From: Nitrospiria bacterium
Lineage (GTDB): Bacteria; Nitrospirota; Nitrospiria; JACQBZ01
Direction: 5' to 3'
NCBI GenBank assembly: GCA_035517655.1
Contig: DATIYJ010000035.1
Span: forward strand, 1-64,000
Length of the DNA: 64,000 bases
Shown here piece by piece: positions 31,895 through 62,500 of the stretch. How positions within the stretch are numbered: the stretch's first letter is position 1; the number at the start of each line of letters is the position of its first letter. A program made the translations under genes and the position numbers. The notes under the pieces were generated by a model. The model was not told the DNA's origin. It saw nothing but the letters and a program-made list of their open reading frames with translations, and searched no databases.

Positions 31895-32056
31895 AGGGGC
31901 TCGCGTTGCCGCCATTATCTGTGGGGACCCCTGCGGGCTCCGCTCTTCCAATGCCCCCATGCCCCGTGCTCGGACAGGCGAAGCCTGTCTGTCCCTCGCT
32001 TACCCCCTGGCGGAGCCGGACGGAGCCGCCCCCCTCTCGCTCGCCGTGCTCGCCGG
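31895..32056 (-). repeat. Dispersed composite repeat, copy 1
   Basis: About 160 bases between two convergent genes. Its reverse complement lines up almost end to end with 35939-36105: GCGAGCGAGA, GGCTCCGTCCGGCT, a GCCTGTCCGAGC palindromic stem, GGGGGCAT, and CAGATAATGGCGGCAACGC with GAGCCCCT at the end. It contains a perfect stem GACAGGC-GAA-GCCTGTC. There is no coding frame that I can support. The position suggests it may double as a bidirectional terminator. Confidence 0.75.
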
Positions 32057-35935: not shown

Positions 35936-35938
35936 TTC

Positions 35939-36105
35939 AGCGAGCAAAGCGAGCGAGAAGGGGAGGCTCCGTCCGGCTTGGCCGGTGGAGAATAAGCGAA
36001 GATCAGGCTTTGCCTGTCCGAGCGCGGGGAGTGGGGGCATCGGAGGACCAGTTATAAGGGTCGCCGGACGGGCCCCCACAGATAATGGCGGCAACGCGAG
36101 CCCCT
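35939..36105 (+). repeat. Dispersed composite repeat, copy 2
   Basis: About 167 bases between the converging ends of polA and the first propeller gene. It is the inverted partner of 31895-32056. Readable modules are GCGAGCAAAGCGAGCGAGA, GGCTCCGTCCGGCTTGGCC, AGGCTTTGCCTGTCCGAGC, GTGGGGGCATCGGAGGACC, CGGACGGGCCCCCACAG and ATAATGGCGGCAACGCGAGC. No gene is supported in it. Confidence 0.75.
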
Positions 36106-36117
36106 ATGATGAAGACG

Positions 36118-44818: not shown

Positions 44819-45883
44819 TCAATTCTTCCGGTCCAAGCCGCTTTCGTTGTAGGTCACCAAACTGCGCATATCGTCCGCCGGATTATGGGTCAGGTTGACC
44901 AGCCCCGAACCGTCCCGGTTCATGGCATACAATTCCCAGTTGCCGTCCCGGTTGGTCACGAACAGGATGCGGCCGTCCGGAAGCCAGACCGGATCGTCCT
45001 CCTCGGACCGGGGCGTGCGGGTCAGGTTGTGGGGTTTGGATCCGTCCGCGTTCATGATATAGATCTCCCGGTTGCCGTCGCGAATCGTCACGAACGGAAG
45101 GACTCTTCCGTCCATCGACCAGGTAAACATTCCGCTGCCGTCGTCCGCCGGATTGCGGGTGAGGTTCGCCGGGTCCGAGCCGTCCGGGTTCATGGAATAG
45201 ATCTCCCGGTTGCCGTCGCGGGTCGTGACAAACCCGATCCGGGTCCCGTCCGGCGACCAGAAGGCGTTCCAGTCCAGACCGGGGCTGTGGGTGAGGTTCC
45301 GCTGATGGGAACCGTCGGCGTCCATGATATAGATGTCCTCGTCCCCGCTCGCGCTTGTCGAGGTGAAGGCGATCCGGGTGCCGTCGGGCGACCATTTGGC
45401 GTCCGACTGCTCGTTCTCCGACCGGGTCAGGCGAATCTGGCGGGATCCGTCGGCGTTCATGAGGTAAACTTCCCGGTTTCCCTCCCGCGCCGAGATGAAA
45501 AGGATTTTTTTCTTGTCCGGCGACCAGCGGGGGAATTCATCCGTGCCGGTGTCGGTCAGCCGGTGCTGATCGGTCCCGTCGGGCGCCATCGAATAGATAT
45601 CCCGCTTGCCGTGATCGTTGTTCACATAGACGACCCGGCTGCCGTCCAGCGTCACCACGGCAAAGTACTTGGCCCCGCTGCTGTTCGTCAGCCGGATCTG
45701 GTGCTCGCCGTCCGGATCCATCCGGAACAACTCGCGCTCGCCGGTGCGATTGGATGAAAAATAGATCTTGTAGTCCCGGGTCTCGCGCGGAATCAAAAGG
45801 CCCGGCTTGACCTTCTGACCGCACCCGGACACGACCAGGACGGCCGTGATCGCCGCCATTGCCCATCGGTACGTCCTTTTCAT
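44819..45883 (-). CDS. PD40/TolB-like seven-bladed lipoprotein
   Basis: 354 residues. The lipobox is VLVVSGC (Cys at about 21). Seven PD40 blades follow, each with FVTTRDGNREIYSMNPDG-type strands and W-x-PDG turns. One blade (FTSTSASGDEDIYIM) has a two-residue longer hairpin. GGAGG precedes the ATG at 45883; the longer frame from 45907 is rejected. Propellers of this type occur in TolB of the Tol-Pal system, but the N-terminal TolB domain is missing, so this is not TolB. The 96-base gap before the next gene upstream holds a short palindrome. Confidence 0.9.
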   Translation of the reverse strand: MKRTYRWAMAAITAVLVVSGCGQKVKPGLLIPRETRDYKIYFSSNRTGERELFRMDPDGEHQIRLTNSSGAKYFAVVTLDGSRVVYVNNDHGKRDIYSMAPDGTDQHRLTDTGTDEFPRWSPDKKKILFISAREGNREVYLMNADGSRQIRLTRSENEQSDAKWSPDGTRIAFTSTSASGDEDIYIMDADGSHQRNLTHSPGLDWNAFWSPDGTRIGFVTTRDGNREIYSMNPDGSDPANLTRNPADDGSGMFTWSMDGRVLPFVTIRDGNREIYIMNADGSKPHNLTRTPRSEEDDPVWLPDGRILFVTNRDGNWELYAMNRDGSGLVNLTHNPADDMRSLVTYNESGLDRKN

Positions 45884-45949
45884 AACATCCTCCATGGACT
45901 CTTCCACCGGGGGGGGCCCGTGCGGAAGCGGAAACCGTCCTCCGACCCG

Positions 45950-45965
45950 CCTGCCGGCAGGCAGG
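45950..45965. repeat. Short palindrome between two PD40 genes
   Basis: CCTGCCGGCAGGCAGG, the same core as the palindromes inserted in polA. It lies in the 96-base intergenic gap downstream of the stop of the 45980-47062 gene. Confidence 0.65.
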
Positions 45966-45979
45966 CGCCCCCCGGACCC

Positions 45980-47062
45980 CTACCGTCCCGGATAGAGCCG
46001 GATCCCTCTTGTGTCGTCGGCCGGGTTATTCGTCAGATTCGTCACTCCGGACCCGTCGCGGTTCATGGCGTACAGCTCCCAGTTGCCGTCCCGGTTGGTC
46101 AGAAACAGGATCCGGCCGTCCGGAAGCCAGACCGGATCGTCTTCATCCGCGTTCGGCGTGTTCGTAAGATTCCGGGGATTGGACCCGTCCGCGTTCATGA
46201 TAAAAATCTCGCGCCGGCCGGCGCGGTTGGTCACAAACGGCAGGACCCTTCCGTCCGAGGACCAGGTGAACATCCCGCTGCCGTCGTCCGCCGGATTGCG
46301 GGTCAGGTTCATCGGATCGGACCCGTCCGCGTTCATCGCGTAAATTTCCCGGTTGCCGTCGCGCGTCGAGACGAACCCGATCCGGGTCCCGTCCGGCGAC
46401 CAGAACGGGTTCCAGTCCTCCGCGCGATTCTTGGTCAGGTTCGTCTGATGGGCGCCGTCCGGATCCATCACGTAGATCTCTTCGTTGCCGTCCCGGTTCG
46501 AGGTGAAGGCGATCTTGTTTCCGTGGGGAAGCCACTGGGGATCGTCCTCCATCCCCGGGGTGTGGGTCAGCCGCGTCTGATCGGTCCCGTCCGAATTCAT
46601 CATGTAGAGCTCCGCGTTGCCGTCGCGCTCGGAGATGAACACGATCCTCTTTCCGTCGGGCGACCACCGGGGCGCGTAATCGTCCGCGTCGTTGTGGGTG
46701 AGCTGGACCCGGTCGGACCCGTCCACATTGATCCGGTAGATCTCACGGTTGCCGGTGCCGTCCGTGACGTACACGGCCCGCTTTTCATCCGGAGAGGCCA
46801 CGGCGTAATCCACCTGGCCCATGTTGCGGGTCAACCGGGTCTGGTGGCTTCCGTCCGGATCCATGACGTAGAGTTCCCGGGTGCCATCCCGGTACGAAAT
46901 AAAAAACAGTTTAAAATCCAACGGCGCGTTTTGCGGAGCGGAGAGATCTCCGGCACTTCGTCCGGACGGCGTCATCATCTGACCGCATCCGACCAGCCCC
47001 GACATCGCCGAAACCGCCAAGGCTCCGAGCACGCCCGAAACGACCTGCGATCTCCTCTTCAT
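45980..47062 (-). CDS. PD40/TolB-like seven-bladed lipoprotein
   Basis: 360 residues. The signal ends MSGLVGC (Cys at about 26). Seven PD40 blades follow, from FFISYRDGTRELYVM to FLTNRDGNWELYAM. It is the closest visible paralogue of the gene at 44819-45883: the last three blades are nearly superimposable, including RSEEDDPVWLPDG against NADEDDPVWLPDG. This suggests a recent tandem duplication. GAGGAGGATGACGA precedes the ATG. The two are separated by 96 bases containing a palindrome. Confidence 0.9.
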   Translation of the reverse strand: MKRRSQVVSGVLGALAVSAMSGLVGCGQMMTPSGRSAGDLSAPQNAPLDFKLFFISYRDGTRELYVMDPDGSHQTRLTRNMGQVDYAVASPDEKRAVYVTDGTGNREIYRINVDGSDRVQLTHNDADDYAPRWSPDGKRIVFISERDGNAELYMMNSDGTDQTRLTHTPGMEDDPQWLPHGNKIAFTSNRDGNEEIYVMDPDGAHQTNLTKNRAEDWNPFWSPDGTRIGFVSTRDGNREIYAMNADGSDPMNLTRNPADDGSGMFTWSSDGRVLPFVTNRAGRREIFIMNADGSNPRNLTNTPNADEDDPVWLPDGRILFLTNRDGNWELYAMNRDGSGVTNLTNNPADDTRGIRLYPGR

Positions 47063-47096
47063 TCGTCATCCTCCTCTTGAACAACCTTCCAATCCG

Positions 47097-47924
47097 CTAC
47101 CAAACCACCAGGCTGTAATTTTCCGGGCCGTCCTTCGCGATATCCACCCGAACCGGACTCTCCTCCAACGGGATCGTCCGGACCGCCCGCTGCCGTTTCA
47201 GATCGATCACGGTCAGGGAAGCGGAACCGCTGTTGGCCACGTAGGCCCACCGTCCGTCGGGTGAGACCGCCGCGCTCTTGGGAGCGCGGCCGACCGGAAT
47301 GAGGCTCACGGTCTTCAACCCCCGAGTTTCCAGCACGGACACATCGTTCGACGCCTCGTTCACGATGAGAAGCCGCGCGCCGTCCGGCGTCACCGCCGCG
47401 GCCATCGGTCCCGTCCCGACCGCGACTTGCGCAATCTTCTCGAACGACGGGATGGACAAAACCGAGACGCGGTTGCCGCCGTGGTGCGTGACATAGGCCC
47501 GGGAACCGTCCGGTGAAAGCGCGATGCCGCACGGGTTGTCTCCCAGGACCAACGTCCGTCCCACTTCGCCCCGCGCGTTTTCGATGATCGACAAGTCCCC
47601 GGAATGATGATTCGTCACCAGTGTGAACCGGCCGTCGGGGGTCACCACGATCCCCATCGGGTTGGTTCCGACCGGGATGCGCTTCAGGATCCGGCGGCCC
47701 TCCAGGTCCAGGACAAAAACTTCGTTCAAATCTTCCGGAATGGCGTAACCGGTCCGTCCCCAGACGGCCAGTCGCATCGGTCGATGCTCGCCCATGATGG
47801 CCCGGGCCGACCGGAAATCGGGATAGCCCTTGTCGATCCGGACGTCGGGAATCCCGCCCCCGCATCCCCAAAGGGCGATGCCCGCCAGCGCGACCGCGAT
47901 CGTCATCCGAGGCGTTTTTGTCAC
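47097..47924 (-). CDS. YVTN-type propeller lipoprotein, short form
   Basis: 275 residues from a GTG. The lipobox is GIALWGC (Cys at about 21). Five clear YVTN blades are visible, with a weaker one at the start, so it is shorter than its seven-bladed paralogues and may need a partner to close the ring. It carries GDNPCGIALSPDG followed by THHGG, and TNHHSG, the same Cys/His pattern as the two YVTN proteins at 37-39 kb. The GTGA overlap with the upstream PD40 gene implies coupled translation of a YVTN and a PD40 protein. Confidence 0.86.
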   Translation of the reverse strand: MTKTPRMTIAVALAGIALWGCGGGIPDVRIDKGYPDFRSARAIMGEHRPMRLAVWGRTGYAIPEDLNEVFVLDLEGRRILKRIPVGTNPMGIVVTPDGRFTLVTNHHSGDLSIIENARGEVGRTLVLGDNPCGIALSPDGSRAYVTHHGGNRVSVLSIPSFEKIAQVAVGTGPMAAAVTPDGARLLIVNEASNDVSVLETRGLKTVSLIPVGRAPKSAAVSPDGRWAYVANSGSASLTVIDLKRQRAVRTIPLEESPVRVDIAKDGPENYSLVVW

Positions 47925-49780
47925 GGCCGCACCCCGGCCGCCTCGGTCAGCAAGCGTTTTTGCGTCCCGTTCGGGTCCGTGATCCAGATCCGGTATTCAC
48001 CGCTCGCGTTCGTGACGTAGGCCAGCCATCGGCCGTTCGGGCTGGCCGTGGGATGCCAGATGCGGGTGCCGGGCGGCGCGATGGAGCGGGTCAAGGACAC
48101 GATCTCCCCGCTCTCAAGATTCTTCCGGTACAATTCATCGCGGCCGGCCGATTCGGCGACGAAATAAAGTTGCTTGCCGTCCGCGGACCAGGCCGGCAGC
48201 CGCGCCGATGGAAGCCGCACGACCGCGCCCGCATGCCCTCCGTCCCGATCCATGATATAAATGGCGGAAGTCCCGTCCCGGTTGGAGGTGAACGCGATCC
48301 GACGGTCGTCGGGCGACCAGGCCGGTTGAATATCCGCACCCGGGGCGTCGGTCAACCGCGTCGGGTTCGAGCCGTCCGATCCAGCAACGTAGACCTCCCA
48401 ATGGCCGTCCCGATTGGACTCGAACGCGACCCACTTTCCGTCATGAGATTCGACCGGGTCCTCGCCCGGTTCGATCGCAAAAGGGCGCGCATGTCCGTCG
48501 ATCGTCCCTGGGTCCGCACGCTCGATCCGACCGGTTTCGGTGTCCATCACATACCATCCCCGAGCCTCATCCCGCCCGGCCGCAAAGGCGATCCGGCGAC
48601 CGTCGGCGAACCAGGTCGGATGCTCTTCAAAATAGCCTCCCGTTCCGTGCGAGCCCTCCTCGTTCGAATGGAAGCTCACGGCGATCTCGCGAAAATCCGA
48701 CATGCGGATGGCGTAAATTTCTTCCCGTCCGCCCCGGTTCGAGGAAAAATAAATTTTCGACCCGTCCGGAGACCAATACGGGCAGATGTCGTTGTCGGGA
48801 TTGAAGGTCAGGCGCGTCGGGTTGGACCCGTCCGAATCCATGACGTAGATCTCCGGATTTCCGTCCCGATAGGAGGCAAACGCGACATGCCTCATATCCG
48901 GGGAAAAGACCGGGCTGGATTCGGCCGCCGGGGTCTGCGTCAGGCGGACCAGACCCGTTCCGTCCGCCCGGATCGTGTAGACGTCCCAGTTCCCGTCTTT
49001 GTTCGATTCAAAGACGATCCGCCGACCGTCGGAAGCCCAACGCGGATGATCCTCGTCCGAGGGGTAGTCCGTCAGATCCACGGCCTCGCCTCCTTCGGAG
49101 GGCATGAGAAAAATATCCCAATTCCCGGTGCGGTCCGAAATGAACGCCAGGGACCGGCCGTCGGGCGAATAGACCGGCGCGTCGTTGTCTTGGGCGCTGG
49201 CCGTCAGGGCCTCCAGGGCCGTGCCGTCGGGATGGACCCGGTAGATCTGCCAGCTTCCGCTCCGGTTCGACGCGAAGGCCAGCCATCGGCCGTCCGGCGA
49301 CCAAACGGGATTATAATCCTGCGCCGAGCCGCTTGTCACGCGCCGAAGGTCCCGCCCGTCCGGCCTCACGGTATAAACGGCCCAATTCCCGCTGCGCCGG
49401 GAAGCGAAGACGATCCGGCTTCCGTCGGGGGACCAGGCGTAACTGCCGTTTCCGTCCTCGGCGCGGTTCCGGGTCAGGTTGACCGGGTTCGAGCCGTCGT
49501 CGTTCATCACGTACAGCTCGGTGTTGCCGTCCCGATTGGAGACAAAGGCGATCCGCTTTCCGTCGGGCGAGGCCACCGGCCAGATGTATACCGGTTTTCC
49601 CTCCCGGAGATCCATCGGCTGGTCTTCCTCCTCCGAGCCGTACGGTTGATTCCCCTTCAGCGGATTAACAAGGGATGGGGCCGGACCGCCGCCGCATCCG
49701 GCCGTCAAAAAGGCGAAAAGCGTTGCAAGGTTGAAAAGTCGCGCGGCCGCATTGAACCTTTGGACCCTTAAACCCTTCAC
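47921..49780 (-). CDS. Twelve-bladed PD40 double-propeller lipoprotein
   Basis: 619 residues from a GTG that gives a short basic N-terminus and lipobox FAFLTAGC (Cys at about 29). I count twelve PD40 blades, from FVSNRDGNTELYVM to YVTNASGEYRIWIT, consistent with two six-bladed rings. A break near the middle (ISVSFHSNEEGSHGTGGYF-like loop after FSSNRGGREEIYAI) may mark the junction. The longer frame to 49948 runs into the next gene and is rejected. The stop overlaps the YVTN gene by four bases. It is the largest PD40 protein in the array. Confidence 0.87.
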   Translation of the reverse strand: MKGLRVQRFNAAARLFNLATLFAFLTAGCGGGPAPSLVNPLKGNQPYGSEEEDQPMDLREGKPVYIWPVASPDGKRIAFVSNRDGNTELYVMNDDGSNPVNLTRNRAEDGNGSYAWSPDGSRIVFASRRSGNWAVYTVRPDGRDLRRVTSGSAQDYNPVWSPDGRWLAFASNRSGSWQIYRVHPDGTALEALTASAQDNDAPVYSPDGRSLAFISDRTGNWDIFLMPSEGGEAVDLTDYPSDEDHPRWASDGRRIVFESNKDGNWDVYTIRADGTGLVRLTQTPAAESSPVFSPDMRHVAFASYRDGNPEIYVMDSDGSNPTRLTFNPDNDICPYWSPDGSKIYFSSNRGGREEIYAIRMSDFREIAVSFHSNEEGSHGTGGYFEEHPTWFADGRRIAFAAGRDEARGWYVMDTETGRIERADPGTIDGHARPFAIEPGEDPVESHDGKWVAFESNRDGHWEVYVAGSDGSNPTRLTDAPGADIQPAWSPDDRRIAFTSNRDGTSAIYIMDRDGGHAGAVVRLPSARLPAWSADGKQLYFVAESAGRDELYRKNLESGEIVSLTRSIAPPGTRIWHPTASPNGRWLAYVTNASGEYRIWITDPNGTQKRLLTEAAGVRP

Positions 49781-49800
49781 CGTTTCCGGATCATGTTTTT

Positions 49801-50940
49801 CTATTTCGGCGACCAGTATGGCCACTTGCTCTCTCCTTGCAACCGGGTCAACTGCGTGACACGGGATCCATCCGGACTCATGGTGTAAATCTGATAATGC
49901 CCATCCCGGTTCGAACTGAACGCGATCTGCCGGCCGTCGGGCGACCATTGGGGCCCGATGTCGTCGGCCGGATCGTTCGTCAGGTTTCGCAGATCTTGCC
50001 CTCCGGCGTCCATGACGTAAATATCATTCCGCCCTTGTCGAAGCGCTTCGAAGGCCAATCGGCGCCCGTCCGGCGACCAGGCCGGGTTCGACGCGGCGCC
50101 GTCCATCCGCGTCAGGCGGCGGGGCTTGGACCCGTCGGCCGCCATGACATAAATCTCCCAATGACCGTCCCGGTCGGACTCGAACGCGATTTGGGCTCCG
50201 TCCGGGGACCAGACCGGTGTTTCGTTATCGCCCGTTCCCCGGGTCAGCCGAAGCGGATCGCCGCCCTTCGCCTCCACCCGATAGATCTCCCAACGGCCCG
50301 TCGCATTGGACTCGAACGCGATCGTCTCTCCGTTGGGAGACCAGGCCGCCGCCACCTTGTCGCCGGGAAGATTCGTGAGCCGAGTCCTTTCTTGCCCATC
50401 GGCCCGCATCAGGTAGATCTCCCGACGGCCCTCGTCGCCGAGCATGAAGGCCAGCCGGTCACCTTTAACGCAGCCCTCCGGCTCCGCCGGGGGCTGCGCG
50501 GGGCCCGGGGACATCGGAGCACCCGTCGAAGACGGAGCGCACGGGCCCCCGGATCCAACGGGCGACCAGGCCGGGGCGCTCTGCCGCTCCGGTGTCCGGG
50601 TTATCTTCGTATCGACGAAATCCCGAAGGGTCATACTGTAAATCTCCCAGCGGCCGTCCCGGTCGCTGAGATAAGCCAGCCGTTCTCCGTCGGGCGACCA
50701 CGCCGGCCAGATATTTTTACCCCGGCCCCGCGTGACGTTGCTCAAGTGGCGCCCATCGCGGTTGACGATATAAATGTCCCGGCCCCCCCCATGCAGAACG
50801 GTGAAGGCCAGCCGGGCCTCCCGCCCCGCCGGGTCCGGAAAGCCTAATTCAGGCCTCGGACTCCCGGTCGTCGCGCAAGCCGCGGGAAGCAGCCAGGCCG
50901 CCGCGATGAAAAGCGCCCATCGCCATGCCGTTTCCTTCAT
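49801..50940 (-). CDS. PD40/TolB-like seven-bladed lipoprotein with a repeat insertion
   Basis: 379 residues. The signal ends WLLPAAC (Cys at about 22; proline at -3 makes the lipobox imperfect). Seven PD40 blades follow. In the third, the normal WSPDGDRLAF is interrupted after WSP by about 32 residues rich in Gly, Pro and Ala (VGSGGPCAPSSTGAP to EGCVK). The DNA there matches the composite repeat found between genes in this window. The insertion is in frame and would lie in a blade-blade turn. GGCGGAG precedes the ATG. The gap to the next gene is seven bases. Confidence 0.9.
   Translation of the reverse strand: MKETAWRWALFIAAAWLLPAACATTGSPRPELGFPDPAGREARLAFTVLHGGGRDIYIVNRDGRHLSNVTRGRGKNIWPAWSPDGERLAYLSDRDGRWEIYSMTLRDFVDTKITRTPERQSAPAWSPVGSGGPCAPSSTGAPMSPGPAQPPAEPEGCVKGDRLAFMLGDEGRREIYLMRADGQERTRLTNLPGDKVAAAWSPNGETIAFESNATGRWEIYRVEAKGGDPLRLTRGTGDNETPVWSPDGAQIAFESDRDGHWEIYVMAADGSKPRRLTRMDGAASNPAWSPDGRRLAFEALRQGRNDIYVMDAGGQDLRNLTNDPADDIGPQWSPDGRQIAFSSNRDGHYQIYTMSPDGSRVTQLTRLQGESKWPYWSPK
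50464..50567 (-). repeat. Dispersed repeat inserted in frame in a PD40 propeller gene
   Basis: On the plus strand this reads CAGCCCTCCGGC with GCCGGGGGCTG (a hairpin), then GCGCGGGGCCCGGGGACAT, CGGAGCACC and GCACGGGCCCCC. Copy 2 at 35939-36105 has TCCGGCTTGGCCGG, GCGCGGGGAGTGGGGGCAT, CGGAGGACC and GGACGGGCCCCC in the same order. The insertion splits the WSPDG motif of one blade and preserves the frame. Confidence 0.65.
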
Positions 50941-50947
50941 CTCCGCC

Positions 50948-52072
50948 TCAGGGAATCGGCGCAACGAACGGTCCGTCACCCTCGTCGTGTCGGGCCTGTT
51001 GCGTTCCCCAGAGGTCCATGACGAAGATCTGCCAGGGTCCCTGGCCATCCTTCTGGACGAAGCTGATTCGCGATCCGTCCGGAGACCAGGAAGGAACCTC
51101 CTTTTCCGAAACGGCGTCCGTCATCGTTTTCTGAATCCGTCCGGCCAAATCGACCACCGAGATATAGGCCCCCGCTTCCCCTTTCGAGACGAACGCGATC
51201 ATCTTCCCGTCCGGCGACCACCGCGGGCTGTCCTCCTCTTCCGGCGTCCGGGTCAGTTGCCGGGGATTCGAACCGTCCGCGTTCATGACATACAGTTCCC
51301 AATTGCCGGTCCGGTTGGAGACAAAGGACAGGTGCTTCCCGTCCGGCGACCAGTTGGGGCAGGTGCTCTCGCCCGAAGTCTTGGTCAGCGGGCGGGGCCG
51401 GGAGCCTTGACCGTCCATGAGGTAGATCTCGTTGTGACCGCTCAGATCGGAGACGAAAACGACATGCTTCATGTCCGGAGACCATTTCTGGTTGTCTTCC
51501 ACGGCCGGCAATGTCGTGAGCCGTCGTTGATCCGAGCCGTCCGGGTTCATCGAAAAAAGGTCCCAGCTTCCCGACCGGTCCGAGATGAACATGATTTTCA
51601 ATCCGTCGTAGGACCAAACCGGCCAGCGGTCGTTCGCGGCATTCCGGCTCAGATTGGTCTGATGCGTACCGTCCGAATCCATGACATAGATCTCTTTATT
51701 CCCGTCGCGGTTCGAGACGAAGAGTATCCGCTGCCCGTCCGGCGACCAGATCGGGTCGTCGTCGTCCGCCGGGTTCCCGGTCAGGTTTCGCGCATGCCCG
51801 CCGTCCGGATCCATGGCGTAAATTTCTTTATTGCCGTCCCGCCTCGACTCGAACGCCAGGCGGGTTCCGTCCGGCGACCAGACCGGATTCTCTTCGTCCG
51901 TTTCGGTCCGCGTCAGCCGCACGATGGCCGGCGTCGTCCGGCTGATCCGTTCGGAAATGATCGGATCCGTGTTGAACGGTTCCGTCGCGACTTGACGCAT
52001 CCCACAGCCGATCAGGTTGATCGCAGAAAACAGAAAGAAGGCCGAGACCCGGAGTCGAAAGAACGTGTTCAT
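50948..52072 (-). CDS. PD40/TolB-like seven-bladed lipoprotein
   Basis: 374 residues. The lipobox is AINLIGC (Cys at about 23). Five regular PD40 blades (FESRRDGNKEIYAM to FVSNRTGNWELYVM) are followed by two degenerate ones, FVSKGEAGAYISVV and FVQKDGQGPWQIFVM, which lack the RDGN turn. The C-terminal blade may therefore have a different surface. The start codon overlaps the stop of the upstream PD40 gene (ATGA), and the stop is seven bases before the next gene, so the three are tightly packed. Confidence 0.9.
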   Translation of the reverse strand: MNTFFRLRVSAFFLFSAINLIGCGMRQVATEPFNTDPIISERISRTTPAIVRLTRTETDEENPVWSPDGTRLAFESRRDGNKEIYAMDPDGGHARNLTGNPADDDDPIWSPDGQRILFVSNRDGNKEIYVMDSDGTHQTNLSRNAANDRWPVWSYDGLKIMFISDRSGSWDLFSMNPDGSDQRRLTTLPAVEDNQKWSPDMKHVVFVSDLSGHNEIYLMDGQGSRPRPLTKTSGESTCPNWSPDGKHLSFVSNRTGNWELYVMNADGSNPRQLTRTPEEEDSPRWSPDGKMIAFVSKGEAGAYISVVDLAGRIQKTMTDAVSEKEVPSWSPDGSRISFVQKDGQGPWQIFVMDLWGTQQARHDEGDGPFVAPIP

Positions 52073-53082
52073 TTAACGGGCCTCCAGAACGGCCATGTGT
52101 TGTCCGACGCCGTGTGGGTCAGGCGCGTTTGATGCGAGCCGTCGCGGTTCATGACATAAATCTGATTGTGGCCGTCCCGGCTGGAGACAAACGTGATCTG
52201 TCCCCCGTCCGGCGACCAGGTCGGGATGTCCGCATCCGTCGGGCCGACGGTCAACCGCTTGATGCTCGATCCGTCCACGTTCATCAGGTAAACCTGCCAG
52301 TTGCCGTCCCGGTTCGAAATCACCGTCAGCTGCTGGCTGTTCGGGGCCCAGAAAAAAGCCCCGCGGCCGTCCTCGTGTTTATCGCGGGTCATGTTCGTCG
52401 CGTTCGACCCGTCGGCGTTCATGACGTAGATTTCGTTGTTCCCGTCCCGGTTGGAAACGAACCCGATCTTGGTGCCGTCCGGCGACCATTTCGGGTTGAA
52501 ATCGTCCCCCCGGCTTTTGGTTAGATTCCGCTGGTCGGATCCGTCGGCGTTCATCACATAGACTTCGCTGTTGCCGTCCCGCTTCGACAGAAAGGCGATC
52601 TTGGTGCCGTCCGGCGACCAGAACGGCCGGGAATCCTCGGCCGGGTCGCGTGTCAGCCGACGGAGATCGGTCCCGTCGCTGTTGACCACGTAGATTTCAT
52701 GGTTGCCGTCCCGCGTCGAGATGAAGGCCAGTCGGCGGCCGTCCGGCGACCAGAAGGGATCTTCATCCTCGGCCGGGTCGTGCGTCAGCCGGACCGGATG
52801 CGAACCGTCCGCGTCCATGATGTAGACTTCCTTGTTCCCGTCGCGGGTGGAAACGAAGGCCAGCCGCCGGCCGTCGGCCGACCAGACGGGCCAGACGTCG
52901 TCGCCGGGGCTCCGCGTGAGGTTGCGTTGATCGGACCCGTCCGGGTTCATGGAATAGATCTCCCAGTTGCCGTCCCGGTGCGACTCGAACGCGATCCGGC
53001 GGGACAGGCCGCCTTCTTCCCCGGATGCGAGTCCGGAACCGCACAGGACCAGACCCACCGTAGCCAGTATAACCCCTTTCAT
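52069..53082 (-). CDS. PD40/TolB-like seven-bladed secreted protein
   Basis: 337 residues. The signal peptide has no lipobox and should be cut after GSGLAS, so this member is soluble rather than lipid-anchored. All seven blades are very regular (FESHRDGNWEIYSM, FVSTRDGNKEVYIM, FISTRDGNHEIYVV, FLSKRDGNSEVYVM, FVSNRDGNNEIYVM, VISNRDGNWQVYLM, FVSSRDGHNQIYVM). Hardly any linker precedes blade one. It is the most consensus-like PD40 protein here. It overlaps the next gene by four bases. Confidence 0.92.
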   Translation of the reverse strand: MKGVILATVGLVLCGSGLASGEEGGLSRRIAFESHRDGNWEIYSMNPDGSDQRNLTRSPGDDVWPVWSADGRRLAFVSTRDGNKEVYIMDADGSHPVRLTHDPAEDEDPFWSPDGRRLAFISTRDGNHEIYVVNSDGTDLRRLTRDPAEDSRPFWSPDGTKIAFLSKRDGNSEVYVMNADGSDQRNLTKSRGDDFNPKWSPDGTKIGFVSNRDGNNEIYVMNADGSNATNMTRDKHEDGRGAFFWAPNSQQLTVISNRDGNWQVYLMNVDGSSIKRLTVGPTDADIPTWSPDGGQITFVSSRDGHNQIYVMNRDGSHQTRLTHTASDNTWPFWRPVK

Positions 53083-53121
53083 TTTCGGTCCACCTCCTTT
53101 AGATTGATCCGACCGTCCCGC

Positions 53122-54192
53122 TCAATTGAGCAACCATTGCGGATCGGCTTTCCGTCCCGCGACGGCCGTCACGGGCGTCGCCCCCGAACCGTCGGCGGCC
53201 GCAATGAAAAGTTCGGGGGCGTCGAGTTGATATCCCACGAACAACACCCTCCGGCCGTCCGGAGACCAGACCGGCTTGGCCTCGTCCGGCACGCGCGACA
53301 TCAGTCGCTTTTCATGGCGGCCGTCGGCATCCATCACATGGATTTCCCGCCGGCCGGATTGATCCACGGCGTACGCGATCCGGCTTCCGTCCGGAGACCA
53401 GACCGGATCCGTCTCGTCCCCGCGGCTCCGGGTCAACCGCGCGATGCCGCTGCCGTCCGACGCCATCCGGTAAAGCTCCCAGCTTCCGGTCCGGTTCGAA
53501 ACAAACAACATCTGTTTTCCATCCGGAGACCAGGCCGGACACCGATCGTCGGCGAGGTTTCGAGTGAGATTGGCCGGATGCGATCCGTCCGCGTCCATCG
53601 AATAAATTTCCCAGGCCCCCTCCCGCCTGGCTTCATACGCGATCCGGCGACCGTCCGGCGACCAAACGGGGTTGGCCTCCTCTTCCGGCGTCTCGGTCAG
53701 CCGCCGCTCGCTCGATCCGTCCGCATCGATGCGATAGAGCTCCCAATTTCCGTCCCGGTTCGATTCAAAGGCGACCCGGCGGCTGTCCGGGGACCAGACC
53801 GGCCCTTCGTCAATCCCCTTGGCGTAGGTCAGTCGGACCGGGGCGCTTCCATCGGTGTTCATGATATAGATTTCGTAGTCGCCATCCCGTCTCGAAACAA
53901 ACGCGATCTTGGTTCCGTCCGGGGAAGGCATCAGCCCTTCCTCCTCCTCCGGAGTGGAGGTCAAACGCTCGGTGCGTCGACCGTCGGCCGTCACCGAATA
54001 AATGTCCCAGGGACCGTCCTGCGTGGAGGCATAGACGATCCGGCCGGCCGCGGCTTCGGCCGGGATCGGAACGGCGGCGGGCGGGCTTTCCTTGAAAAGC
54101 GTCCCCTCGCAACCGGCGATGAAGCCGATCAAACCGCAAACCAGGAGGCCTTGTTGTCGGTCCCGCTTCCATCGGCCTTTCCCGCCGTCCAT
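53122..54192 (-). CDS. PD40/TolB-like seven-bladed lipoprotein
   Basis: 356 residues. The lipobox is LIGFIAGC (Cys at about 28). Seven PD40 blades follow, with YASTQDGPWDIYSV first and a divergent last blade (FVGYQLDAPELFIA). I chose the ATG at 54192, which has GCGGAG upstream, over a TTG five codons earlier. A 39-base gap separates it from the next PD40 gene, and 46 bases separate it from the YVTN gene upstream. No partner enzyme is nearby. Confidence 0.89.
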   Translation of the reverse strand: MDGGKGRWKRDRQQGLLVCGLIGFIAGCEGTLFKESPPAAVPIPAEAAAGRIVYASTQDGPWDIYSVTADGRRTERLTSTPEEEEGLMPSPDGTKIAFVSRRDGDYEIYIMNTDGSAPVRLTYAKGIDEGPVWSPDSRRVAFESNRDGNWELYRIDADGSSERRLTETPEEEANPVWSPDGRRIAYEARREGAWEIYSMDADGSHPANLTRNLADDRCPAWSPDGKQMLFVSNRTGSWELYRMASDGSGIARLTRSRGDETDPVWSPDGSRIAYAVDQSGRREIHVMDADGRHEKRLMSRVPDEAKPVWSPDGRRVLFVGYQLDAPELFIAAADGSGATPVTAVAGRKADPQWLLN

Positions 54193-54238
54193 ATTCCACT
54201 CCGCCAACCTTGACCGGCCCGCCGCGGGAGAGCCCGGG

Positions 54239-56364: not shown

Positions 56365-57267
56365 TCATTTCAGGGTGATGACCCAGATATCGCTGTTTCC
56401 GGAGCGCAGGGACGTGTAGGCAATCTTGCGGCCGTCCGGGCTCCAAGAAGAACGCCACCCGTCCACCATTCCGTCCAGCGTCAGGGGCGAGCGGTTCGAT
56501 CCGTCCGAATTCATGATCCACAGATTCGAATCGGCCGTACGGAAGATGATGCGTTTGCCGTCCGGACTCCAGGAGGCCGCCGGATTATTGTCGAACCGCT
56601 TGTCGGCCACCAGCCGAACCAGGTTTTTCCCCTGCAGGTCCGACAGCCAAAGGCCCCATTCCCCGCTCAGGTTCGAAGAGAAAAGGACCCGCGTGCTGTC
56701 CGGGTTGAAGGAAGGATGCCAGTGCTCGGCCATCCCGATCGAGTGTCGCCACTGTTTTTGCGTCGTCAGATCGATGATCCAGTTTTCATCCTTTCCCGTT
56801 CGATTCGACGTAAAAATGATCATCTTCCCGTCGCGGCTCCAGGAAGGATCGCGATTCCATGTGGTTGGAAGAGGATCGGCCCGGGTCAGGGGCCGCTGAT
56901 GGGATCCGTCCGCGTCCATCAGCCAGAGTTGGTTGACGCCGTCGCGGCTCGAGGTAAAGGCGATCGTCTTCCCGTCCGGGCTCCAGGCCGGGGACCAGTC
57001 GCCCTTCGGGTGATGGGTCAACGAATGGGCGTTTTTCCCGTCCAGATCCATCACCCAGATCTCTTCCTCCCCGCTCGCGTACGATGTGAACGCCAGCCGT
57101 TTCCCGTCCGGACTGAAGCTGGGAAGGTAGTCCATCTCCGGACTCGTCGTGAGTTGAACTTCATTACCCACCTGCGGTCCGAGCTTGAACGCCGCCGGAG
57201 TCTCCGCCATGGCCGCGGCCGGGCAGAGGACGACCCCGATCATCATCACACTAAAAAGTTTACGCAT
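56365..57267 (-). CDS. PD40/TolB-like six-bladed secreted protein
   Basis: 300 residues. The signal MRKLFSVMMIGVVLCPAAAMA has a normal cleavage site after AMA. Six PD40 blades of a distinct type follow, using Trp in place of Tyr at the end of each outer strand (EEEIWVM, VNQLWLM, KDENWII, EWGLWLS, SNLWIM, NSDIWVI). This W-type is shared with the gene at 60330-61310 and sets the two apart from the EIYVM group. I chose the ATG at 57267; the frame upstream to 57297 lacks a signal-like start. Confidence 0.9.
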   Translation of the reverse strand: MRKLFSVMMIGVVLCPAAAMAETPAAFKLGPQVGNEVQLTTSPEMDYLPSFSPDGKRLAFTSYASGEEEIWVMDLDGKNAHSLTHHPKGDWSPAWSPDGKTIAFTSSRDGVNQLWLMDADGSHQRPLTRADPLPTTWNRDPSWSRDGKMIIFTSNRTGKDENWIIDLTTQKQWRHSIGMAEHWHPSFNPDSTRVLFSSNLSGEWGLWLSDLQGKNLVRLVADKRFDNNPAASWSPDGKRIIFRTADSNLWIMNSDGSNRSPLTLDGMVDGWRSSWSPDGRKIAYTSLRSGNSDIWVITLK

Positions 57268-57302
57268 GGGATTCCCCGTCTTTGATATTTTTTGCATAAA
57301 TG

Positions 57303-58442
57303 TTAATCATCACTCGCCGAAAAGTGTTCCCGTTGACGGGCGGCGCTGACCGAGCGCCGGGCGTCTTCATCCCGTCCGGTATAGGCCACGTACGCAATCC
57401 TAGAGCCGTCCGGCGACCAGCGATGCCGGTCTTTGCCTTTATCGGCCAACCCAAAGGTCAATCGCCGCTGACCGGAGCCGTCCGTGTTCATCACATAAAT
57501 TTCATTGTGCCCGTCCCGGTCCGAAACAAAAGCGATCCTGTTCCCGTTCGGAGACCAGAAGGGATTAAAGTCCTTCGCCGGATTCACGGTCAATCGGCGG
57601 GCCCCCGTCCCGTCCGAGTTGGCCCGGTAGATTTCCCAGTTTCCGTCTTGCCGGGAAGCGTAGAGAACCTGCCGTCCGTCCGGGGACCAGGCCGGACCTT
57701 CCGCCGGGGCTTCGGTACGGCTGATGTTCTGCTGATGGCTGCCGTCCGCATTCATTCGGTACACCTGATACGGCCCGTCGCGATTGGAATCGAAGAGGAT
57801 CGACCGGCCGTCGGGAGACCATTCGTTCCAGCAGAAGCCGTCCATCGCCGGGTTGTGCGTGAGGCGTTGCTCCCGGCTGCCGTCCGCCGCCATGACATAA
57901 ACCTCCCAGTTTCCATCTTTATTGCTGACGTAGGAAAGCGCTTGTCCATCGGGCGACCAGGCCGGATCAATGCTGTCCCCCTTGAGCGTCCGGGTCAGCC
58001 GGCGCTGTTGCGATCCATCCGACGCCATCGAGTACAGTTCCCAGTGGCCGGTCTGTTGGGAGGTAAAGACGATCCGGGAGCCGTCCGGCGTCCATTCCGG
58101 ATCGTCTTCATCGGACTGATTATAGGTCAATCGAAGTCCGTTGGACCCGTCCCGGTCCATGACATACACCTCGTCTCTTCCGTCTCGATTCGAGATAAAC
58201 GCCAGCTTGGTCCCGTCCGGCGACCACGCCAGGCTTCGCCCCTCCAGGGGAGGCGACGTCAGGCGATACGGTTTCGAATCATCGACCGACGTCCAAAAAA
58301 GTTCCCAGTGCCCCTGAGACGGGGGCCGGTCCAGAGCTTGGCGGCCCGCCATCGGTTCGCCCGCGGTCCAACCCCAGCAACCGCCGAGAACGGTGACGGC
58401 GAGAATCCAGAACCCGATGAATCTGTTTTCCCGATCGTTCAT
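57303..58442 (-). CDS. PD40/TolB-like lipoprotein, seven or eight blades
   Basis: 379 residues. The lipobox is VTVLGGC (Cys at about 22). Six regular PD40 blades (FISNRDGRDEVYVM to FVSDRDGHNEIYVM) lie between partial ones: GHWELFWTSV at the N-terminus and YVAYTGRDEDARRS at the C-terminus. These two may complete a seventh ring blade by the usual strand exchange between chain ends. One blade has an extra residue run CWNEWSPDGRS. Its start is seven bases from the Ycf48-like gene stop, so they are probably co-transcribed. Confidence 0.89.
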   Translation of the reverse strand: MNDRENRFIGFWILAVTVLGGCWGWTAGEPMAGRQALDRPPSQGHWELFWTSVDDSKPYRLTSPPLEGRSLAWSPDGTKLAFISNRDGRDEVYVMDRDGSNGLRLTYNQSDEDDPEWTPDGSRIVFTSQQTGHWELYSMASDGSQQRRLTRTLKGDSIDPAWSPDGQALSYVSNKDGNWEVYVMAADGSREQRLTHNPAMDGFCWNEWSPDGRSILFDSNRDGPYQVYRMNADGSHQQNISRTEAPAEGPAWSPDGRQVLYASRQDGNWEIYRANSDGTGARRLTVNPAKDFNPFWSPNGNRIAFVSDRDGHNEIYVMNTDGSGQRRLTFGLADKGKDRHRWSPDGSRIAYVAYTGRDEDARRSVSAARQREHFSASDD

Positions 58443-58449
58443 CTCACCG

Positions 58450-60333
58450 TCACAATCCGGCGGCCCCGGGCGCCAGCCAATGTTTTCCGCCGTCCCGGGT
58501 GTAGCGGATCAGCCCGCCGGTTCCAACCGCCGCGCCATGTTCGGCATCCGAGAAATGAACGCTGTAAAAATCGTTCGTCGTATCGGACGCCTGAGCCCGC
58601 CACCGCGTTCCGCCGTCCTCCGTCGCCAGGATGACGCCCCGATCTCCCACGATCCAGCCGTGTTGCGCGTCCGGGAAATAGACGTCGCCCAACTTCTCCG
58701 TCGTGCCCACGGCCTCCCGCTTCCAGGCGGCCCCGCCGTCCACCGTATGCAGGACGACGCCATCGCTCCCCACCGCCCAGCCGTTCAACGGATCCACAAA
58801 ATGGATATCGCCGAGCCATTTTCCATCAGGAGCCCGTTGCGTCCGCCAGTGCTTCCCGCCGTCCTCGGTCGTGAGGATAACCCCTCCGCGGCCGACCGCC
58901 CAGCTCCGAAGCCGGTCCTGGACGAAAAGTCCGTCCAGCCAATCCGTCGTCCCGCTTTCCTGCCGTTCCCAGTTCTCCCCACCGTCGCGCGTGCGGAGGA
59001 TCAGTCCGTTCCGTCCCACCGCCCAACCCTGCGCGGGAAGATCATCGGATGAACCCGCAAATTGAACATCGTAAATCCAATTTTCAGACGTCCCGCTGGT
59101 TTGGGAAAGCCAGTGCCGTCCGCCGTCCGTCGTGTGCCAGATCGCACCGAATCCGCCCACCACCCAGCCGTTCTTCGAATCGGTGAAATCGATTCCGCAC
59201 AACCACCGCATCGTATCGATCGGCTGCGCCGTCCATCGTATCCCGCCGTCGGTCGTATGCAGGATCACTCCGCTGTCCCCGACCGCCCAGCCGTTCAGGG
59301 CATCTGCAAAATGCACCCCGCACAACCAGGTTTTGACCTCCCGACTCTGCGCGATCCAGGTGTCGCCGCCGTTCGCGGTATGCCGGATGGCCCCGCCGCG
59401 GCCGACGATCCAACCGTTCCGCGGATCGGCAAAAAACACGCCGAGCCAATTCGCCCGGCCGCCGGACTGGGATTCCCATCGTTCCCCGCCGTCCGCAGTA
59501 TGGAGCACCGTTCCCGCCACGCCGACGGCCCAGCCGTTGCGCGCGTCCAAAAAATGGACGCAATACAGAGATCGGGCGGTTCCGCTGTTCTGGCGTCTCC
59601 ATTCGCGCCCCCCGTCGATCGTCGACAGAACGACCCCGTCCTTGCCGACGGCCCATCCCTGCCGCTCGTCGATAAAGAAAACCTCGTAGAGCCAGTAGCC
59701 TTCGGGAAGGACTTGATTCTCCCAGGTCTCCCCTCCATCCCGGGTGTGAAGGATCAGCCCGTCCCGCCCGACGATCCAGCCCCGATTTGCGTTTACAAAA
59801 CTCACGCTATAGAGGTAGCTTTGCGTTCCGCTCGCCTGGGGACGCCAGTGCTCCCCCCCGTCGTCGGTGTGAAGAATCGTTCCGTCCCGCCCGACGATCC
59901 AGCCCCGGTTGGAATCGATAAAATGGAGGCTGAACAGATGGGAGGATGTTCCGGCGCGTTGCCGCCTCCAGCGGTTTCCCCCGTCGAGCGTCCGTAGGAT
60001 GGTCCCGTCGTCTCCGATCGCCCATCCCTGTAAGGGATCCAGAAACTGCACGCCGCCCAAACCGCTCCGACTGCCGCTCGCCTGCGCCGTCCAGTGCTCC
60101 CCCCCGTCGTCGGTGTGAAGAATCAATCCGCCTTTTCCGACGATCCAGCCCCGGCGGGGATCGAGAAAAAAGACCCGGTCCAGATCTTCCTGCGGCCAGA
60201 GCGAAGGCGCCGCGGCCTCACGCCGCAAGCTGCACGCCGAGACGAGCATCCCGAAACAGATCATGCTGACAAAGAACACGGCCAACCGGACACCGCCGGA
60301 GGTTCCGACGGGGGCCAAAACGTTTATCCTCAT
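58450..60333 (-). CDS. Fourteen-repeat Ycf48-like lipoprotein
   Basis: 627 residues. The lipobox is GMLVSAC (Cys at about 34). I count fourteen repeats of GWIVGRDGTILHTDDGGEHW type, about 42 residues each, from GWIVGKGGLILHT to GAAVGTGGLIRYT. Ycf48 itself is a single seven-bladed propeller that assists photosystem II assembly in phototrophs. Fourteen repeats would make two such rings. There is no sign of phototrophy here, so the Ycf48 role should not be transferred. It overlaps the PD40 gene upstream by four bases (ATGA). Confidence 0.92.
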   Translation of the reverse strand: MRINVLAPVGTSGGVRLAVFFVSMICFGMLVSACSLRREAAAPSLWPQEDLDRVFFLDPRRGWIVGKGGLILHTDDGGEHWTAQASGSRSGLGGVQFLDPLQGWAIGDDGTILRTLDGGNRWRRQRAGTSSHLFSLHFIDSNRGWIVGRDGTILHTDDGGEHWRPQASGTQSYLYSVSFVNANRGWIVGRDGLILHTRDGGETWENQVLPEGYWLYEVFFIDERQGWAVGKDGVVLSTIDGGREWRRQNSGTARSLYCVHFLDARNGWAVGVAGTVLHTADGGERWESQSGGRANWLGVFFADPRNGWIVGRGGAIRHTANGGDTWIAQSREVKTWLCGVHFADALNGWAVGDSGVILHTTDGGIRWTAQPIDTMRWLCGIDFTDSKNGWVVGGFGAIWHTTDGGRHWLSQTSGTSENWIYDVQFAGSSDDLPAQGWAVGRNGLILRTRDGGENWERQESGTTDWLDGLFVQDRLRSWAVGRGGVILTTEDGGKHWRTQRAPDGKWLGDIHFVDPLNGWAVGSDGVVLHTVDGGAAWKREAVGTTEKLGDVYFPDAQHGWIVGDRGVILATEDGGTRWRAQASDTTNDFYSVHFSDAEHGAAVGTGGLIRYTRDGGKHWLAPGAAGL

Positions 60334-61310
60334 TTCGTCCGCTGAGCCACCTGCAACACCGCAATTTCCCCGCGCCCCTCGTCATTCACGCGGGTGAACG
60401 CCAGGTCCCGGCCGTCCGGGCTAAAGGAGAGATACAGAAAGCTCAAGCCCTCGAACACTTGTTTGTCCACGTTGTATTTGACTTCGTGCGTTCCCAGCAG
60501 CCCTCTCCCGATGCGCCGCTCGTTGTTTCCGTTCCCGTCCATGATCCAGATATCCCGTTGCCCGTTGCGCTCCGAGACAAAGGCGATTTGGGAGCCGTCC
60601 GGGCTCCAGGCCGGAAGAAAGTCCCGCCGCGTTTCGGTCTTTTGGGTGAGTTGTTTGATGGTCCGCTCCTGGGTATCGATCAGCCAGATATCGCTCTTGC
60701 CGCGCATCGAGGAGACGGCGGCCACCGATCGCGCGTCCGGGCTCCAGGCCGACACCCAATCGCCGCAGCGGATGTTCGGCATCCCCTGGACATTCCCGCC
60801 GTCCGCATCCATGACCCAGACGAGCACATCCATCGATCGAGATGATACAAAGGCGATGCGTTTCCCATCCGGACTCCAGACCGGCGCAATATCCAGACCG
60901 TTATAGTGGGTCAGCTGCCGGGTGTCGGTCCCGTCGAGTTTCAGGCTCCAGATATCCCAATTGCCGCCCTGATCGGACGCGTAGGCCAGCCGGGTTCCGT
61001 CCGGGCTCCACGATGGAAAGCGTTCATTGCTCGAATCATGCGTGATTTGTTTCAGTCCGGTTCCGTCCCGGTTGATGGTCCAGATATCCCAATTTCCGGC
61101 CATGTCGCTTTCGAACGCCAACGACTTTCCATCCGGACTCCAGACCGGATGGACCGCGTTGGCCGGCAACGCGCGGATGGACCTCACGGTCACATTGTCC
61201 AAGGCGCAACCGGCGACTAAAAGTTGAAAAATTAAAACGGTAAAAAAAGTCGAACGGATTTCCGTCCTTTTAACTAAACCCTTGGACCTTCCAATCTCAA
61301 AAACCTTCAT
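60330..61310 (-). CDS. PD40/TolB-like six-bladed lipoprotein, Trp type
   Basis: 326 residues. The lipobox is FQLLVAGC (Cys at about 35, after a long basic N-terminus). Six PD40 blades of the Trp type follow (NWDIWTI, NWDIWSL, VLVWVM, KSDIWLI, QRDIWIM), the last ending in EIAVL. The third blade has the unusual turn SRSMDVLVW. GGAGAAGA precedes the ATG at 61310; the frame continuing to 61484 is the shadow of the next gene. Its stop overlaps the Ycf48-like gene start. Confidence 0.9.
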   Translation of the reverse strand: MKVFEIGRSKGLVKRTEIRSTFFTVLIFQLLVAGCALDNVTVRSIRALPANAVHPVWSPDGKSLAFESDMAGNWDIWTINRDGTGLKQITHDSSNERFPSWSPDGTRLAYASDQGGNWDIWSLKLDGTDTRQLTHYNGLDIAPVWSPDGKRIAFVSSRSMDVLVWVMDADGGNVQGMPNIRCGDWVSAWSPDARSVAAVSSMRGKSDIWLIDTQERTIKQLTQKTETRRDFLPAWSPDGSQIAFVSERNGQRDIWIMDGNGNNERRIGRGLLGTHEVKYNVDKQVFEGLSFLYLSFSPDGRDLAFTRVNDEGRGEIAVLQVAQRTK

Positions 61311-61339
61311 CGTATTCTTCTCCAAACCCCCGTCCACTT

Positions 61340-62371
61340 TTACGGCTGCCACCGGGGCGCGCTGACCCCGCCGCGGTTGAAGGTCAACCGCTTCAGGTGG
61401 TCCCCGTTGGGATCCATGATATAAACCGCTTCCTCGCCGTCCCGATTGGAGACAAAAGCGATCTGTTTTCCATCCGGAGACCATATCGGCTGGGCGTCCA
61501 CGGCCGGATTCCGCGAGAGATTCTTCACGCCGGACCCGTCCCGGTTCATCACATAAATCTCGTTGTTGCCGTCCCGGGTCGTCGTGAAGACGATCTGTCG
61601 GCCGTCCGGAGACCAGACCTGCATCCCCATCTGTTCATCGGACTTCGTCCGCGTGACATTGCTCGGGTTCGAGCCGTCGGCGTTCATCACGTAGATCTCC
61701 CAGTTCCCGTCCCGATTCATATCGCGGTCCGTTCCCCACGCGATCAGGGCCCCGTCCGGAGACCAGGAATGGAATCCCCGCCCGTCCTCCGCGGGGTTCT
61801 GAGTCAGATTGATCGGATGCCCTCCGTCGGCATCCATGGCATAGATCTCATAGTTGTCGTCCCGTCGGGACACAAAGGCGATTTTGGTCCCGTCCGGCGA
61901 CCAGTCGGGACTGTAATCCCGCGCTTCGTTCCGCGTCAGTCGGCGAACCGGGCCGCCGTCCATGGTCATCGAATAGATTTCTTGATTGCCGTCCCGATCC
62001 GATACAAACGCCACCTGTTTCCCGTCCGGAGACCAGGCCGGATTGTAATCCTGACCGAGGTTCCGTGTCAGGTTGGTCTGGCGGGAACCGTCGGCATCCA
62101 TTCCGTAGATCTCTTTGTTGCCGTCCCGTTCCGACACGAAAACAATCTTTGTTCCGTCCGGCGACCATGCGGGGGCGCGGTTGTCGGCCCGGCCATGGGT
62201 CAGGCGCGTCGCGCCCGTGCCGTCGGTGTTCATCGTATAGATTTCCCAATGGCCGTTTTCATTCGACTCGTAAACGATCTTTTTCGCCCCGGCCATCGCC
62301 GGGGGCGAAAAAAGCAGCAGAACGGCGCCGGCGACCCATGTCGCGCGACCGGTTTTAAAAAACGCCTTCAT
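61340..62371 (-). CDS. PD40/TolB-like seven-bladed secreted protein
   Basis: 343 residues. The signal peptide VAGAVLLLFSPPAMA is followed by AGAKK, with no lipobox, so it should be soluble in the periplasm. Seven PD40 blades follow (YESNENGHWEIYTM to FVSNRDGEEAVYIM). The fifth has a four-residue longer hairpin (WGTDRDMNRDGNWEIYVM), shared in position with a W-type turn of the fusion gene upstream. AAAGGAG precedes the ATG. A 116-base gap separates it from the next gene. Confidence 0.91.
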   Translation of the reverse strand: MKAFFKTGRATWVAGAVLLLFSPPAMAGAKKIVYESNENGHWEIYTMNTDGTGATRLTHGRADNRAPAWSPDGTKIVFVSERDGNKEIYGMDADGSRQTNLTRNLGQDYNPAWSPDGKQVAFVSDRDGNQEIYSMTMDGGPVRRLTRNEARDYSPDWSPDGTKIAFVSRRDDNYEIYAMDADGGHPINLTQNPAEDGRGFHSWSPDGALIAWGTDRDMNRDGNWEIYVMNADGSNPSNVTRTKSDEQMGMQVWSPDGRQIVFTTTRDGNNEIYVMNRDGSGVKNLSRNPAVDAQPIWSPDGKQIAFVSNRDGEEAVYIMDPNGDHLKRLTFNRGGVSAPRWQP

Positions 62372-62403
62372 CGCCTGGACTCCTTTTGTTAAGGGGCTCA
62401 CGT

Positions 62404-62468
62404 CGCCCCCTCCACCGGCCAAGCCGGATGGAGACTCCCACTCTCGCTCGCTGTGCTCGCTGAGAGTC
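62404..62468 (-). repeat. Partial copy of the dispersed composite repeat
   Basis: The minus strand reads GCGAGCACAGCGAGCGAGAG, then TCTCCATCCGGCTTGGCCGG and TGGAG, matching the first module of copy 2 (35939-36000). It is in the 116-base gap between two propeller genes. The later modules are missing. Confidence 0.65.
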
Positions 62469-62473
62469 TATCC

Positions 62474-62500
62474 AATATATATAAGTCTCACGGCTGCCAA
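62474..62500 (-). promoter_or_regulatory. Weak candidate promoter inside the propeller array
   Basis: Minus-strand TTGGCA (62500-62495) and TATATT (62479-62474), but with a 15-base spacer, shorter than usual. The surrounding TATATATAT is unusually AT-rich for this region. It could start a second transcript of the array. Confidence 0.25.

Follow-up and report, generated by a model that had tools for sequence, protein, structure and literature searches.

Within the window, a stretch of 64,000 nucleotides from a Nitrospiria bacterium, a PD40 propeller gene carries 30 additional in-frame codons that are very probably a copy of a non-autonomous, hairpin-forming, mobile-like element of about 85–100 nt, translated as a tolerated loop of ~30 residues. 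Dispersal of the element, its in-frame insertion into at least six genes, and its presence or absence between closely related species are demonstrated at the level of sequence. We infer mobility because related species have both filled and empty sites, and frame and length suggest translation as a tolerated loop.

The host protein and its insert

The gene (49801–50940, minus strand; ATG at 50940) encodes a putative PD40/TolB-like β-propeller lipoprotein of 379 residues, with the lipobox LLPAAC and a PF07676 match (E = 1.6e-59). Its open frame is continuous through 50464–50567, where the initial annotation had proposed that repeat-like DNA keeps the frame, and reads WSP-V-GSGGPCAPSSTGAPMSPGPAQPPAEPEGCV-KGDRLAF. 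Relative to the G002 orthologue, the closest one lacking the insert (72% identical; WSP-M-KEDRLAF), the additional DNA measures exactly 90 bp (50467–50556, minus strand), so the 104-bp interval first noted was about right but slightly wide. The peptide encoded by the element insert includes GSGGPCAPSSTGAPM. The comparison with homologues lacking the insertion, which had been proposed as a check, agrees: the insert is absent from three orthologues (G002, G003, and G005) and from four paralogues in the window.

An AlphaFold model of the protein, computed with five window paralogues as input, has a mean pLDDT of 82.6 and shows a propeller; TolB chains are its best matches in the PDB (E about 1e-20). 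With PD40 repeats and a TolB-like fold in the model, the host protein can be classed as a predicted TolB-like propeller. The insert is positioned between predicted strands E119–125 and E162–169, and residues 131–158 are the sole internal stretch with pLDDT < 50. Apart from the insert, which is modelled as a low-confidence loop, the predicted fold is that of a normal propeller, and in this model, which covers the PD40 protein, the insert site looks like a loop between strands.

PD40 propeller genes form long clusters in the window (about 44900–54200 and 56400–63400), in which several genes have lipobox-like N-termini and YVTN-type propeller genes are interspersed; PD40 matches are also numerous in relatives of the family.

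A dispersed family of two-hairpin elements

When the insert DNA was folded, 0 of 200 shuffles were as stable as the sense strand. A first, blastn-type search of the genome found five more places matching the insert, a short pattern added others, and copies were examined in the sequence stretches around the matches. Alignment of 19 copies gave a consensus of two hairpins with 23 pairs, 12 of which show compensatory change, and a covariance model of ~97 nt (R1) was built from it. Searched with R1, the 2.65-Mb genome yields about 30 strong copies, mostly outside genes, and the window yields four (3354–3453, 31911–32003, 35992–36089, and 50466–50562). The last of these is the PD40 copy, which lies on the plus strand, antisense to the gene (78.7 bits, E = 9.2e-17); its own fold and the covariation of the family place hairpin 1 at 50469–50498 and hairpin 2 at 50501–50556, both on the plus strand. 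The model score, the number of genome copies, and the shuffles together bear out the repeat nature that had been ascribed to this DNA.

Across 83 copies from six genomes, 96.7% of cells were paired, compared with 31.7 to 51.6% when the pairing was slid; these percentages lean towards the model, since the alignment was fitted to R1. Changes on both sides of a pair numbered 206 cells, versus 56 in shuffles. These compensatory changes show that the predicted two-hairpin structure is conserved. In 99 copies, G.T pairs outnumbered A.C mispairs on the modelled strand (167 vs. 22, or 75 to 22 after dropping one nearly invariant U.G pair), an excess that points to the modelled strand as the structured strand. 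This strand runs opposite to the gene in 8 of 9 in-gene copies.

These results bear on whether the insert is instead a native loop of a propeller subfamily, with a resemblance to repeats that is only compositional (high GC, proline/glycine-rich). The initial annotation had held that homologues with the same insert would mark it as native, and this is half borne out: the insert recurs in two orthologues from another genus (G004 and G006), where its position is the same and its peptide similar, but the sites of three orthologues and four paralogues are empty. Moreover, DNA of this structure is present in about 30 copies across the genome, most of them outside genes, and the covariation tracks base pairs rather than amino acids. 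Because of the empty orthologues and paralogues and the homologous DNA copies dispersed elsewhere in the genome, we conclude that the insert is not native to the protein and regard a native loop as ruled out, with scarcely any probability left to it.

Many copies of the element belong to larger repeats. The core copy at 31911–32003 (minus strand, 61.3 bits; repeats I2/I3) belongs to a composite repeat located 3′ of a transglycosylase-like ORF, and that at 35992–36089 (plus strand, 96.3 bits; repeats I1–I3) to another (about 35936–36107) located 3′ of the DNA polymerase I ORF. The simple form of the composite, an outer palindromic element without a core, is found at 62392–62463 (plus strand, repeat I1) and is 91% complementary to 35937–35990. 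An outer-element signature occurs within 110 nt of 35 of the 76 copies not counted in genes versus 1 of 9 in-gene copies, and at 29 of about 2000 control places. In one relative (G009), the core sits inside the outer element in the other orientation. This association and the G009 arrangement point to palindromic elements nested in one another. A known structured RNA was also considered and set aside: Rfam gave no gathering-level match in the window and, over the element in nine loci, none save one sub-threshold match of 25.5 bits.

Further observations concern intergenic copies and a second palindrome. Those at 31911–32003 and 35992–36089, in opposite orientation, flank about 4 kb that contains an endonuclease III-like ORF and DNA polymerase I; they are probably ordinary intergenic copies. 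A second palindrome, CCTGCCTGCCGGCAGG, occurs in the window at 35850–35869 and 45946–45965, one copy being near the 3′ end of the DNA polymerase I ORF. It has 31 matches in the genome versus 1 for a reversed control (≤1 mismatch, both strands; the sequence being palindromic, some places are counted twice), and two copies of the main element, L058 (C61:5214–5327) and L063 (C36:52835–52951), have it nested in their hairpin 2. At L054, L055, L058, L062, and L078 (C61), intergenic copies adjoin tRNA-gene-like sequences, one of them directly after a tRNA gene.

Copies within genes and at orthologous sites

In-frame copies are present in at least six unrelated genes of the bacterium's own genome: PD40, an HlyD/RND adaptor, a DUF58-like gene, a VWA-type gene (1055 aa), the N-terminus of a ThiE-like gene, and an Lhr-like helicase (1490 aa). 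The names other than PD40, for which a family search was made, come from reading the sequences. Five of the six copies share orientation and frame and encode peptides of type SGGPCGEEGTGSSDAPRVPAQARAKPDACL; the Lhr copy (window 3354–3453, minus strand, 80.4 bits) is reversed, in opposite orientation relative to its gene. The VWA insert is absent in every relative compared, the Lhr insert in G001 and G002, and the DUF58 insert in G002, G004, and G005; the HlyD insert is shared by G002 and absent in G001, G003, and G006. ThiE is a weaker case, since its orthologues start downstream of the insert. In the DUF58 gene at L068 (C45), a second ATCGGGGGGCCGCTCCG follows the full element and is either a partial copy or a duplicated target.

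Core length modulo 3 falls in one class in 8 of 9 in-gene copies compared with 22 of 74 others (Fisher p=0.001; 0.015 with 6 independent sites), as expected if the copies are translated. The in-gene count is 9 of 83 sampled copies; many other long ORFs over copies were left out because, judged by eye, they resembled antisense or read-through frames. Strong mRNA hairpins might instead mean that the insert is skipped, by translational bypass or as an element removed at the RNA level. However, the frame-keeping length class and the lack of stops in the used frame of in-gene copies are both things that bypass or removal does not need, and we consider skipping very unlikely. A translated loop of about 30 residues, unstructured and with no selected function of its own, would be tolerated by the host protein, and the in-gene copies that we see may be those that fell into loops with a frame-keeping length.

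The filled and empty PD40 sites conflict with the gene tree. For the whole length of the G000 insert (the genome analysed here), the closest DNA is the same-site copy in G004 (87%), and others are shorter or of lower identity. The two inserts differ by 11 base changes, which alter about nine of 30 aligned residues; among the modelled pairs, two had both bases replaced (C-G to T-A) and a third was altered in one base. Divergence between G000 and G004 is 0.126 in the insert, 0.315 in the flank, and 0.55 at fourfold sites; between G000 and G002, it is 0.080 in the HlyD insert and 0.172 in its flank. The lower divergence of the insert and the conflict with the gene tree make re-insertion, exact loss, and structural constraint candidates. 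A simple recent independent insertion does not explain the same-site grouping or the low insert divergence. To account for the pattern, one or another of four candidate processes is required: repeated entry at a single site, precise loss, transfer, or slow evolution.

Two histories were weighed within the translated-element explanation. Site-specific re-insertion, in which a single PD40 codon received closely related copies repeatedly, as at a hot spot, falls somewhat short of an even chance. The tree conflict and the low insert divergence favour it, as do the G000 flanks, which follow G002 up to the junction, and an ATCG/CGAT-like word at the element start point in the empty VWA, DUF58, HlyD, and Lhr sites (a handful of cases, read without statistics). 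Against it, other copies in the same genomes are more distant than the same-site copies, although a donor-like G002 copy (C67:4404) is fairly near. The other history, which we hold a shade more tentatively, is an ancient PD40 insertion before the split of genera g1 and g3, followed by loss in G002, G003, and G005 and by slow evolution via selected structure or homogenisation. In a tree of 98 distinct copies, G000, G004, and G006 group together by their PD40 inserts (98%), and the two HlyD inserts make up a separate clade (100%), as an ancient insertion would predict, with support values to be read with care because the tree rests on 97 columns. The empty G002 allele has one codon more than its G003 and G005 counterparts, a weak, scar-like hint of loss. 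However, up to three near-exact losses are required, the PD40 insert is far less diverged than its flank and the fourfold sites, and the empty HlyD site of G001 resembles native G003 sequence rather than a deletion scar.

A bolder reading seems to us rather improbable: a Nitrospirota-specific family would re-enter, or depart from, one and the same codon of a given gene in different species, and compensatory changes would preserve its nucleic-acid structure within coding sequence while the peptide drifts, as selfish DNA whose constraint overrides the protein code. The G006 PD40 insert (L125:1834–1951) contains an extra nested palindrome, GGGGACAGATTTGAAATCTGTCCCC; it exceeds the other copies in length by 21 nt, with the frame kept.

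Proposed mobility and relation to known palindromic elements

Our best guess is that the element would move by its structure in single-stranded form, aided by a transposase acting in trans. The small size of the hairpin repeats, their composite forms, and one Y1 gene in the own genome are what a REP-type element mobilised by a RAYT (Y1) transposase might show. Against such an element, R1 found no match in 86.6 kb around 20 Y1 (PF01797) loci, within about 2–4 kb (the only Y1 gene found in the own genome and 19 loci of relatives); co-occurrence with Y1 was poor, several many-copy genomes being without a detected Y1 gene; and GTAG and CGTC tags lay near the ends of 3 and 4 of 85 copies, respectively. 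We therefore think RAYT mobilisation unlikely. At the compared junctions, read by eye, there was no consistent terminal inverted repeat or target duplication; short repeats were seen at PD40 (GTT/CGTT) and Lhr (CGAT), and none that was clear at either VWA or HlyD.

The best-known examples of in-frame palindromic repeats come from Rickettsia and Wolbachia (PMC10969869; PMC3767692). As summarised there, Rickettsia palindromic elements (RPEs; RPE-1 to -3 and others, Ogata 2000/2002) are hairpin repeats of 100–150 bp, some inserted without destroying the frame, at exposed sites and often common to orthologues. The likeness to RPEs that the initial annotation suggested holds up: the Nitrospiria element is a dispersed, hairpin-forming repeat (about 30 copies, 97-nt model), in frame in six unrelated genes, with a loop site predicted for PD40 and a same-site insert in some orthologues. 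It differs in its phylum, GC-richness, and two-hairpin consensus, and in that most sampled copies lie outside genes and some orthologues are empty. By this comparison, the element is supported as an analogue of RPEs, a likeness only and a separate claim from membership in the RPE family; the named families were likened by description, and the exact core pattern occurs only in Nitrospirota records. The same holds for Wolbachia palindromic elements (Ogata 2005, cited in PMC3767692), which are likewise protein-coding palindromic repeats, likened by description rather than by sequence and from another phylum.

Intragenic REPs, GTAG- and CGTC-tagged, are described in some other bacteria in PMC3733652, which makes no mention of Nitrospirota. 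Like them, the element is a short palindromic repeat with some copies in genes, and CGTC-type REPs also lack a dedicated transposase (PMC3733652); unlike them, it is longer, has two hairpins, and bears no GTAG/CGTC tag. Bacterial MITEs are small, non-autonomous, and able to make in-frame fusions (PMC10969869), as is the Nitrospiria element, but no clear terminal inverted repeats or target duplications were found here. Because of its RPE-like behaviour, and because the GTAG/CGTC tag and RAYT adjacency both failed, we would place the element in a new family that behaves like RPEs. No Nitrospirota examples of such elements were found in the open-access literature.

The family is abundant and well defined; it belongs to a distant phylum, comes mostly from groundwater genomes, and has both filled and empty alleles among sister species. 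This series is natural material for testing how elements enter proteins, whether the peptide matters, and whether elements depart again, and it cautions annotators that such inserts are not functional domains.

Judged by sequence matches, nearly all occurrences of the element fall within certain families of the class Nitrospiria. It occurs in 23 of 58 relatives, with up to 71 copies, and in 14 of 396 genomes sampled from the phylum; 13 of these 14 belong to the same class. An exact pattern run against 84,980 GTDB species genomes gave 69 hits, all in Nitrospirota records (records of the own genome may be left out), among them Ca. Manganitrophus GAC4 and groundwater MAGs.
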